Positions 58,133 through 62,147 of a stretch of DNA of 64,000 nt are shown here, piece after piece. Every line of letters begins with the position of its first letter. The first letter of the stretch is position 1. Below the pieces are notes generated by a model. It was given only the letters and a program-made list of their open reading frames with translations, was not told the DNA's origin and did no database searches. The stretch is from Myxococcus xanthus (GTDB lineage Bacteria; Myxococcota; Myxococcia; Myxococcales; Myxococcaceae). The translations under genes were made by a program, and so were the position numbers. The DNA lies in contig NZ_FNOH01000011.1 in the NCBI RefSeq assembly GCF_900106535.1, positions 1-64,000 of the forward strand. Reading direction: 5' to 3'.

Positions 58133-58182
58133 CGAGGACGAGCCTACGGGCCGGAGAAATCCTGGCAAGATTCGCGGTGGGC

Positions 58183-60444
58183 CTACGGCGCCTTGGCCGG
58201 AGCCGCGGCAGGCGCTGCCGCCGCCGGAGCCGGTTCCGCCTGGGACGGCAACAGCGCCAGGCAGGTGTCCTGAGACAACCAGCCCGCGTGGCAGAACCAG
58301 GTCAACAGCGGAATCCGGACCTGCCAGAGCAACACGAAAACCACCGCCAGCGTGATGGCCAGCTTCGTCCACCCGGACGCGCCCTCCGCCTCGTCGTCCT
58401 CCTGCTGCCGGACCAGCGCCGAGCGCACCATGTCCAAGCGGTCCACCCGGGCGTTCGAGGGCAGCTTCGGACGGCGCGTCACCAGCGAGGACAGCTCCGG
58501 TGTCAGCATCAGCCGGTCATTCAGCGCCCAGCCCGAGCCTTCCAACAGCAGCGCCAGGTTGCGCCGGCGCAGCTTCAGCCAGCCCAGAAGTCCTGCCGGG
58601 GCCATGACGACAATGGCAATCAGCGTCGCCGCGGAGATGAGGTCCACCAGCGTCAGCGACTTCACCTGCGTCATGATGAACGCGAAGGACGAGCCCAGCG
58701 CCGCAGCCGCCAGGCCGCCCGCCGCCACGATGCCCGCGAGCCCGCCGCCTGGAGGTGCTGCGGCTGCTGCAGCGGGAGCCGCGCCCGCCGCCGGAGAAGG
58801 CGCCACCGGCGGCGCATTCGTCGCGTTCGTGTAGCCCTTCTCCAGCGTCGAATCGAACGTCTTCTCGCCCGCCGACGCCAGGCCCTCCACCTTACTGGTG
58901 ATGAATTCGCCGATGCGCGCGAAGGGCATGGTCATCGACTCCCACAGCGACACGGGCTGACGAACCACCTGCGTCACGATGGCGTCGCTCTCCACGCCGT
59001 CCACGTCGTAGAAGACGCCCCGCTTGCCCACCGCGAGCTCCGTGCTCCGGCCGCTCGTCACCGGCACCGCCACTTCATACCCGGGCGTCCCGTCCTTCGG
59101 CGCCACCTGGACGTAGAGGATGCAGGTGGTCCCCAGCGCGGTGAGCGCGGAGTGCGCGGCCCGGTTCGTCACCAGCACCGACAGCGTGTACTTGCGCCCG
59201 CCCAGGATGAGCGTCCCCTTCTCCACCAGCGCCAACCGCTTGGGCATGTAGAGGTTGGGCATGCTGATGAAGTTGTTCGCGAACAGCAGCAGCCAGCGCT
59301 GGTAGAGGACCAACCGCTCCAGCTCGTTGACGGCATCCAGCGTGGGCTTGAGCGCGAGGTCCGCCGCGCTCGCCGCTTCCAGGGCATCCAGGTCCGCGTC
59401 CGAAACCGACGGCAGCGTGTCCATCAGCGTGCGCACCGGGTTCGCCTCGAGCTGCGCCTGCCACGCCAGCACGCCATCCGCCTTCGCCGCCAGCCCCCGC
59501 CACGCCGAGTCCGACAGCCGCTGCGAATCCCCCGTCATCGGCGTGGCGACGTCCGTGCGGAACGCCTCCAGCACCTCGTACGCGGGCCCGCGCAGGAGAC
59601 GGGACCACTCCAGCACACCCGACGCATCCGGCGGCGCGATGGGCAGGTCACCCGCCGCCTTCCCCAGCGCCGCCATGTCGCCCAGTGCACCCTCCACCCG
59701 CTCCGCGCGCAGGCGCAGGCTCGCCGCCGCTTCGGGCTGCGCGGCCACCAGCCGGCACTGCACGAAGTACGCATCCAGCAACGGCGCCACGTCGCGCACG
59801 CGCTTGGCTGTCTCCAGGCTGATGTCGCCCCAGACGAACGCCGCGCCCTGCTTCTCCCGGTGCTCCCGCAGCTTCGCGCGCTCCTCGCGGAAGCGTGCCA
59901 CCAGCGCCGCGTCCACGCCCGCCTTGCCTGCCCGATTCGTCAGCGCGGGAAAGCTGGCCATCAGCTCCTGGGCCAGGGGCCGCAGGTGCTCGGACAGGTG
60001 CTCAGGAGCGACGATGCCATCGCCGTTCTGCCCGGTCTCGCGCAGGGCCTTCTCGCTCTCGCGAACCTGCGCCAGGGAGATGCGCCCGGCGTCCGTCGCC
60101 TTCAGCGTCCGGAGAATCATCTCCGCCGCGCCGCGCAGGGGCCGCGCCTCCTCGCTGAGCGCGTTCAACTCCAGCACGTCACTGGAAGCATCCGCGCCGC
60201 GCCGGTCCTTGAGCTGTTTGGCGGCCCAGTCCACCGCCGTGCGCACCTCCGCCACGCGGATGCGGCCGTTGCCGTCCGCGTCCATCAACGTCAGCAGGCG
60301 TGGATCACAGCTCAAGCCCTCCAACGGGCACGCCGTGGCAATCCACTGCGTTTCGGGGATGCGGATCGCCTCCACCAGCACATCGAAGGAGGGAATGTCG
60401 ACCTGGAGCGAGCCGCCGTAGCGGCGATAGATGAGCGAAGCCAT
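58183..60444 (-). CDS. Large EF-hand-containing membrane protein of unknown function
   Basis: A 753-residue protein. A canonical EF-hand loop DADGNGRIRVAE lies at residues 55-66 and two degenerate loops follow (ATDAGRISLAQV about 116-127; QNGDGIVAPEHL 139-150), so calcium binding is likely. Residues 180-480 are helical and then beta-rich with segments GTLILGGRKYTLSVLV and TCILYVQVAPK. A Pro/Ala-rich linker (about 545-570) is followed by two membrane helices (GLAGIVAAGGLAAAALGSSFAF; LVDLISAATLIAIVVMAPAGLLGWL) and a third near the end (LAITLAVVFVLLWQV). The start at 60444 is used. It lies between the beta-propeller lipoprotein gene and xerC on the same strand. The family is not recognised. Confidence 0.72.
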   Translation of the reverse strand: MASLIYRRYGGSLQVDIPSFDVLVEAIRIPETQWIATACPLEGLSCDPRLLTLMDADGNGRIRVAEVRTAVDWAAKQLKDRRGADASSDVLELNALSEEARPLRGAAEMILRTLKATDAGRISLAQVRESEKALRETGQNGDGIVAPEHLSEHLRPLAQELMASFPALTNRAGKAGVDAALVARFREERAKLREHREKQGAAFVWGDISLETAKRVRDVAPLLDAYFVQCRLVAAQPEAAASLRLRAERVEGALGDMAALGKAAGDLPIAPPDASGVLEWSRLLRGPAYEVLEAFRTDVATPMTGDSQRLSDSAWRGLAAKADGVLAWQAQLEANPVRTLMDTLPSVSDADLDALEAASAADLALKPTLDAVNELERLVLYQRWLLLFANNFISMPNLYMPKRLALVEKGTLILGGRKYTLSVLVTNRAAHSALTALGTTCILYVQVAPKDGTPGYEVAVPVTSGRSTELAVGKRGVFYDVDGVESDAIVTQVVRQPVSLWESMTMPFARIGEFITSKVEGLASAGEKTFDSTLEKGYTNATNAPPVAPSPAAGAAPAAAAAAPPGGGLAGIVAAGGLAAAALGSSFAFIMTQVKSLTLVDLISAATLIAIVVMAPAGLLGWLKLRRRNLALLLEGSGWALNDRLMLTPELSSLVTRRPKLPSNARVDRLDMVRSALVRQQEDDEAEGASGWTKLAITLAVVFVLLWQVRIPLLTWFCHAGWLSQDTCLALLPSQAEPAPAAAAPAAAPAKAP

Positions 60445-60503
60445 ACAGGCGGCGGAAGTAAGCACACCGCCCGACGAATCGCACGATCCTCAACAATCAA
60501 AAG

Positions 60504-62147
60504 CTACGGCGTCGCGGGGACGCTGTAGATGCCGGCCTTCGGGCCCTGCGTAATCGCGTACACGGCCAGCGAGTCATTCTTGCCCCCGAAGGACACCGGC
60601 ACCTGGATGCCCTGATCCAGCGTCTTCCGCGCCTGGGTCTTCACGTCGTACACCGCCACATCGTAGGTGTCCGAGTCCATGCGGGCATACGTGACGAGCA
60701 CCCGCTGGCCATCATCGGACAGCTTGTAGCTGAAGATGCCTTGCAGCCACGTGCGAGGGTCCGCCTGCCGGGGCAGGTCCATGGCCATGAAGTCACACGA
60801 GCGTCCATTGCGGATGCAGTTGGAGCGGAACACCACCTGCCCGTTGCCCGGCGTGAAGCCATAGCCAAAGACGCCCTGCTGCACCTTCGCCGCCCGCTCC
60901 TCCCCCAGGGTGTACAGCATCAGGTCCACCGAATACGCGGGCTTGAGGATGCGCGAGAGGAACGCCACATAGCGCCCGTCCGAGCCCCAGACGAAGTTGG
61001 GCACGCGGCCGCCCACCTGCTTCGTCGTGCCGTCCGGCAGCGCGGCCACCGACATCAGCCCCGCGTTCGCAGTCGAGTCATACTTCTCCAGGAAGCCCAC
61101 CGCCTGCGAGTCCGGCGAGAAGGCCAGCTTCTCCACCTGCACGCCCAGCTTGCGCCCCGCGCCCCCCGCCGCCGGGCCCAGGTACAAGTCCCCTGGCACG
61201 TTCGGCTTGCCGTTCTCCGTGCGCGCCAGCCACTTGCCATCGGGCGAAAAGGCAAACACACCCGAGGCCACCGCCAACCGCTTCGCCTTCAGTTCGGGCA
61301 GCTCCGCCAAGTACAAGTCATACAGCCCCCGCACCGACTCGCTGCGCACCTGGAAGGCCACGCGCTGACCATCCGGGGAGACTTCGTAGTCCCCCACCTG
61401 GTCCCCCACCTTCATGGGCGGCGCGTCTGGCTTCTCCACGGAGATGGCCGCCATGCCCCCCGCCGCGGACAGCCGGCGCTTGAAGAGCAGCGTCTTGCCG
61501 TCCGGCGTGAACTGGGCGGTGCTGACCTCCGCCGCCACGTCCGTGAAGGGTCCTGACGGCAGCGTGCCCAGCTTCAGCTTGCCGCCATCCACGTAGGCCA
61601 GCTTCGTCCCGTCCGGGCTGGGCAGCATGTAGCTGACCGCCGTGCCCAGCACGACAGGCGCCGCCTTCGCGTCATCCAGCGACGCCACGTTCAGCGCGCC
61701 CGACTGCGTCGCCGGGTTGTAGCCAGTGAGGAAGAGGACGTACTTCGAGCCCGGCGCCACCAACTGTCCGCCGGGGACGTTCGTCACGCCCTCGCCCAGC
61801 TTGCGCGGCTCGCCGCCCTCCACGGGCACCGCGTACAGCTCGCCCAGCACCATCTGCGGCGGAATGCCGTCCAGCCGGGGCTTCTGCCCGTTGACGAGGT
61901 ACGTGGCGAAGCGGCCGTCCGACGTCACCCGCAGGTCCGTCACGCGGCCCGAGGCCAGGAGCGTGCCCTGCCCCGCGCCGGGGGCACCGGGCGGAGGTGG
62001 CTTCTCCGCCGCCGCGGCGGCCTTGGCGCGCCGCACGCCCGGGGCCTCCGAGCCGCCATTTTCGCCCTGCTTGCAGCCCGTGCCCGCCATCACCAGCGAG
62101 GCCATCAGGCCCGCGGTCCACAGCCGCCCCTGCCGCATCCGCATCAT
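60504..62147 (-). CDS. TolB/WD40-like beta-propeller lipoprotein
   Basis: A 547-residue lipoprotein (lipobox AGTGC, Cys25) with a short Ala/Pro-rich linker and then a beta-propeller built from repeated blades marked by SPDG or TPDG turns: [60 protein letters not shown] and [19 protein letters not shown]. TolB-like propellers mediate protein contacts at the outer membrane. The start ATG overlaps the trmFO stop (ATGA), so the two are coupled; an ATG one codon later has better ribosome binding site spacing. It is followed by the EF-hand gene 59 bases downstream. Function is unknown; periplasmic location is by lipobox. Confidence 0.8.

Follow-up and report, generated by a model that had tools for sequence, protein, structure and literature searches.

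The locus and its gene product

The window, that is, the whole stretch of DNA analysed, comprises 64,000 nucleotides of a Myxococcus xanthus contig (NZ_FNOH01000011.1, positions 1 to 64,000 of the forward strand). On its minus strand the open reading frame at 58183–60444 translates without an internal stop into a protein of 753 amino acids, and this gene is real. A long plus-strand open reading frame, 58177–60528, was rejected as an antisense frame of a gene with 70% GC, and a scan for promoters and terminators found nothing beyond chance level. Segment 53180–63613 of the window carries TrmFO, XerC, HslV-type and HslU-type genes, an order known from other bacteria, which is broken up here by genes for a beta-propeller protein, the EF-hand protein and a CitMHS-type transporter.

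The features of the protein are collected in Table 1. The soluble part extends to about residue 540. The stretch of it that had been described previously as a 350-residue soluble part consists of at least two modules, one helical and one beta. By column entropy, the beta domain comes next in conservation to the segment that follows the second transmembrane helix (TM2), ahead of the other soluble modules. The Ala/Pro linker of the preliminary description is visible in the sequence.

Table 1. Features of the EF-hand gene and its product (window coordinates; residues of the 753-residue protein).
Feature	Residues	Window positions	Strand	Basis
CDS, EF-hand inner-membrane protein		58183..60444	-	translation; full-length homologues
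EF-hand loop 1 (DADGNGRIRVAE)	55-66	60247..60282	-	ligands in 97/104 members; strand and helix in model
EF-like loop 2, degenerate (KATDAGRISLAQ)	115-126	60067..60102	-	model: strand 121-123, helix 124-137
EF-like loop 3 (GQNGDGIVAPEH)	138-149	59998..60033	-	N140-G-D142-G143 nearly invariant; profile match to EhCaBP EF-hand 1
EF-like loop 4 (NRAGKAGVDAAL)	170-181	59902..59937	-	G173 and G176 nearly invariant; loops 3 and 4 matched as an EF-hand pair by profile
Helical region	198-390	59275..59853	-	1-400 model, pLDDT mostly 80-95 except 240-270
Beta domain	403-500	58945..59238	-	strands in full-length model; column entropy
Ala/Pro linker	about 545-567	58744..58812	-	sequence
Transmembrane helix 1	572-590	58675..58731	-	hydropathy
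Transmembrane helix 2	597-615	58600..58656	-	hydropathy
Post-TM2 cytoplasmic segment (predicted)	621-665	58450..58584	-	lowest mean column entropy
Transmembrane helix 3	695-713	58306..58362	-	hydropathy
C-terminal tail, predicted periplasmic	714-753	58186..58305	-	topology inferred

Membrane part and topology

Three hydrophobic peaks coincide with the three membrane helices that had been proposed, and hydropathy gave no N-terminal signal peptide. The mean number of Lys and Arg residues is 0.26 in the loop between TM1 and TM2 versus 9.9 after TM2. By the positive-inside rule, the lack of a signal and this distribution of charge lead us to place the three soluble parts (EF-hand, helical and beta) in the cytoplasm together with the post-TM2 segment. 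The predicted cytosolic topology of the EF-hand part is fairly well supported, and we consider it quite probable. At 1.24 bits, the mean column entropy of the post-TM2 segment is below that of every other segment, and the post-TM2 segment carries the motif W-x-KLR-x-R ... G638-W-A-x-N642 ... T656 ... P662. In the tail, Cys718 and Cys728 are both invariant in 16 sequences of the Myxococcus-Archangium clade.

A protein with three transmembrane helices, a Gly/Ala-rich TM1 and its strongest conservation next to the membrane might be a subunit of a Ca2+-gated channel, carrier or membrane enzyme, in which a transmembrane oligomer would do the work and the EF-hand domain would serve as a cytosolic gate. 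Citrin does appear in the fold list at Z 4.1, but the match, which spans 135 residues, has an rmsd of 21.8 and is tied with unrelated entries. Given that the transmembrane helices are poor in polar and charged residues, that no transporter or channel family scored above cut-off, and that the gene has no conserved neighbour, we regard a gated channel, carrier or enzyme subunit as improbable.

The EF-hand loops and their conservation

Loop 1 reads D55-A-D57-G-N59-G60-R61-I62-R63-V-A-E66. Positions 1, 3, 5 and 12 carry acidic or amide ligands, and positions 6, 8 and 9 are Gly, Ile and Arg, respectively. Among 104 family members the column counts are 104 for D55, 99 for D57, 100 for N/D59, 91 for G60, 103 for R61, 104 for I/V/L62, 104 for R63 and 99 for E66. 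All four side-chain ligand positions are retained together in 97/104 members, the Gly at position 6 in 91/104 and a hydrophobic residue at position 8 in 104/104. Conservation of this breadth indicates that the signature is more than chance, and that most relatives appear to have kept a calmodulin-like loop since early in the history of the phylum.

The PROSITE pattern PS00018 bars Arg at loop position 9, and because that position is Arg the pattern was passed by 0/86 family members; once position 9 was freed, 69/86 passed. Thus loop 1, which the preliminary description had called a perfect canonical EF-hand loop, is close to canonical but not perfect. An invariant Arg at position 9 is unusual for EF-hands and could lower the affinity for Ca2+. 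The two degenerate loops of the same description were recovered at 138–149 (NGDG) and 170–181 (NRAGKAGVD), and a further EF-like loop, loop 2, mostly lacks acidic ligands.

Evidence for EF-hand homology

A profile of the N-domain (residues 18–205) was compared with 177,635 PDB sequences, and the best 60 matches were EF-hand proteins without exception (60/60; E 0.0018 to 0.013). In these alignments loop 1 is in register with the loops of calmodulin and of CDPKs, and loops 3 and 4 together align with the first EF-hand pair of EhCaBP. Each match is weak singly; it is the uniform list of EF-hand proteins that argues for homology. Pfam points the same way. The whole protein gave 0 families above the curated cut-off, the N-domain alone gave EF-hand_6 at 14.4 bits, below the cut-off of 25, and EF-hand models matched up to 24/34 members of the N-domain alignment, weakly and under cut-off.

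Residues 1–400 were modelled from 15 sequences, the window protein and its relatives from the contig scan (pLDDT 82, pTM 0.66). In the model the strand of loop 1, 61–63, is flanked by helices 48–54 and 64–77, and further strands lie at 90–92, 121–123, 175–177, 277–279 and 309–311, separated in pairs by a helix. These short strands are placed in the model as in paired EF-hands, and their spacing alone suggests up to four EF-hand-like pairs. The secondary structure of the model fits paired helix-loop-helix units with a short strand, but the fold search gave no confident match. Taken with the retention of ligands in the family, these data bear out the earlier description of an EF-hand membrane protein; EF-hand homology is well supported and, to us, very probable. 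Binding of Ca2+ by the window protein is plausible, and we lean toward it.

Searches for a known family or fold

Searches of Pfam, NCBIfam, PHROGs and PADLOC with 33 members gave nothing convincing. In PDB sequence searches the whole protein gave chance matches only and the beta domain gave no match. No fold stood out for the full-length or the 1–400 model (best Z 5.4 and 4.8, respectively), and Foldseek returned a best E of 0.01 with a TM score of 0.13. Since the beta and transmembrane parts were modelled at low confidence, within the full-length job only, we do not claim new folds for them. The protein belongs to an unnamed family, as had been proposed, one absent from Pfam, NCBIfam and the PDB, and no description of the 753-residue protein was found in the open-licence papers on Myxococcus EF-hand proteins. 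A phage or defence origin was also considered and rejected, there being 0 matches in phages or viral contigs.

Spread of the family

The contig scan yielded 17 loci, almost all from Myxococcus, Corallococcus, Archangium and Citreicoccus, and a search of the phylum placed the family in 123/195 Myxococcota genomes, with identity to the window protein falling to about 27%. There is usually one copy per genome, some copies being split over contigs; the window's own genome has a single copy, and no paralogue was found in it. Three members (G083:C1, G133:C115 and G040:C18) contain one or two in-frame stops, which may reflect decay or sequencing errors. One record, L014, is titled Comamonas sp. KCTC 72670, an organism label that looks wrong. 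It encodes a protein that shares 89% identity with the Myxococcus protein over almost the entire length.

The only trace found outside the phylum is a truncated, unannotated relative of 44% GC on the Aeromonas salmonicida plasmid pBY3 (L088:1733-2128). Its identity is 57% to a distant member and, over 122 residues, 35% to the window protein. It adjoins a guaA-like fragment and lies near an IS91-like element. On the basis of this one plasmid fragment, the family extends beyond the Myxococcota.

Gene neighbourhood

The gene order in Myxococcus and near relatives is trmFO-propeller-EF-xerC, with the propeller and EF-hand genes side by side and pointing the same way. In the window 59 bp separate these two genes, and the propeller gene encodes a lipoprotein-type signal. 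The preliminary description had drawn on this linkage to propose a calcium-responsive envelope complex of the two products. The linkage itself is real, but it is restricted to Myxococcus, Corallococcus and near relatives: neither the propeller gene nor xerC is nearby at any of 41 other loci (0/41; L012 and L048–L087). Moreover, the EF-hands are predicted to be cytoplasmic, which would put the membrane between them and the lipoprotein, and access to the periplasm would be limited to the tail of about 40 residues. The envelope complex is unlikely, and we give it very little weight. No neighbour is conserved across the phylum, and a functional partner identified by synteny was rejected, no gene being common to more than 7/43 loci. 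Because there is no conserved neighbour outside the Myxococcus group, the EF-hand gene behaves as a stand-alone unit, and its local linkage says little about function.

Ligand loss and the role of the ion

In an unrooted tree of 45 members both main subfamilies keep the ligands. Five members (L049–L052 and L085), which form a clade with full branch support, lack ligands from the set D3, D5 and E12 but retain D1, R7 and R9; although the tree is unrooted, ligand loss in this clade is the simpler reading. Because the clade keeps the protein after losing ligands, the ion would not be essential to the core function. Probably it is not central to that function but regulatory, or can be dispensed with.

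The possibility therefore had to be weighed that the EF-hand domain is a structural relic, with loop 1 held by a permanent ion or by its own Arg and the protein performing a membrane task unresponsive to calcium. R61 and R63 match D55 in invariance, the clade that lost ligands still has D1, R7 and R9, the remaining EF-like loops are degenerate, and the post-TM2 segment and beta domain are the most conserved parts, all of which would suit a relic. However, retention of the four ligand positions in 97/104 members, across a divergence that reaches about 27% identity, is not easily accounted for unless ion binding has been under selection. We take a relic to be a genuine possibility, though one that we doubt.

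Our best reading, held tentatively and with a little less than even confidence, is that the protein is a divalent-cation-responsive, cytosol-facing inner-membrane regulator or scaffold, for which we infer the ion binding, the coupling and the partner. The large N-terminal part would lie in the cytoplasm, anchored by a transmembrane hairpin and the third transmembrane helix. Its EF-hand domain, with one full-ligand loop and at least three degenerate EF-like loops, would be followed by the helical region and the beta domain. Loop 1 would bind a divalent cation, probably Ca2+, upon which the EF-hand domain, helical region and beta domain may move relative to one another. This shift might be transmitted to the membrane part through the conserved post-TM2 segment, so that the EF-hand protein would regulate or scaffold a partner located at the membrane's inner face. 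Ligand retention across two ancient subfamilies is consistent with such a regulator or scaffold; against it stand a fold that has no confident match among solved structures and the lack of a conserved partner gene.

In its strongest form, this would be an ancient inner-membrane family that reads cytosolic Ca2+ via a calmodulin-like domain and acts via its beta and membrane modules, which we think rather unlikely. To our knowledge, a cytosolic calcium-signalling effector of this kind has not been described in bacteria. It is an old question whether cytosolic Ca2+ is a bacterial signal, and candidate sensors with conservation broad enough for a test are few. The present family is single copy, keeps its loop across most of the phylum, is predicted to face the cytoplasm and includes a natural comparison group in which the loop was apparently lost. 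No named relatives were found for its beta and membrane modules, so that a structure would probably define a new family.

Comparison with known systems

Citrin is a mitochondrial carrier regulator with eight EF-hands. The citrin/aralar regulatory domain (PDB 4p5w) resembles the window protein in idea: EF-hand pairs are set in an array, few of the sites work, and the array is attached to a membrane part. The fold match is the weak one given above, and the window protein is without a carrier domain.

EfhP (PA4107), from the inner membrane of Pseudomonas aeruginosa, has one N-terminal transmembrane helix and two EF-hand loops, the EF-hands being predicted to be periplasmic (PMC4053335). Compared by description only, the two are alike as bacterial inner-membrane EF-hand proteins with no EF-hand paralogue in the genome. 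The layout differs: the window protein has no N-terminal signal, its N-terminal EF-hands are predicted to be inside, in the cytoplasm, and its three transmembrane helices are C-terminal.

In relation to the EF-hand superfamily at large (calmodulin, plant CDPK, EhCaBP1), the window protein is distinguished by Arg at loop position 9, by a single full loop with degenerate partners, and by the embedding of these in a membrane protein of 753 residues whose beta and transmembrane parts are unmatched. It is nevertheless like the superfamily in the ligands of loop 1 and in the pair formed by loops 3 and 4, both in register, and, as far as the 1–400 model indicates, in its helix-loop-strand-helix structure.
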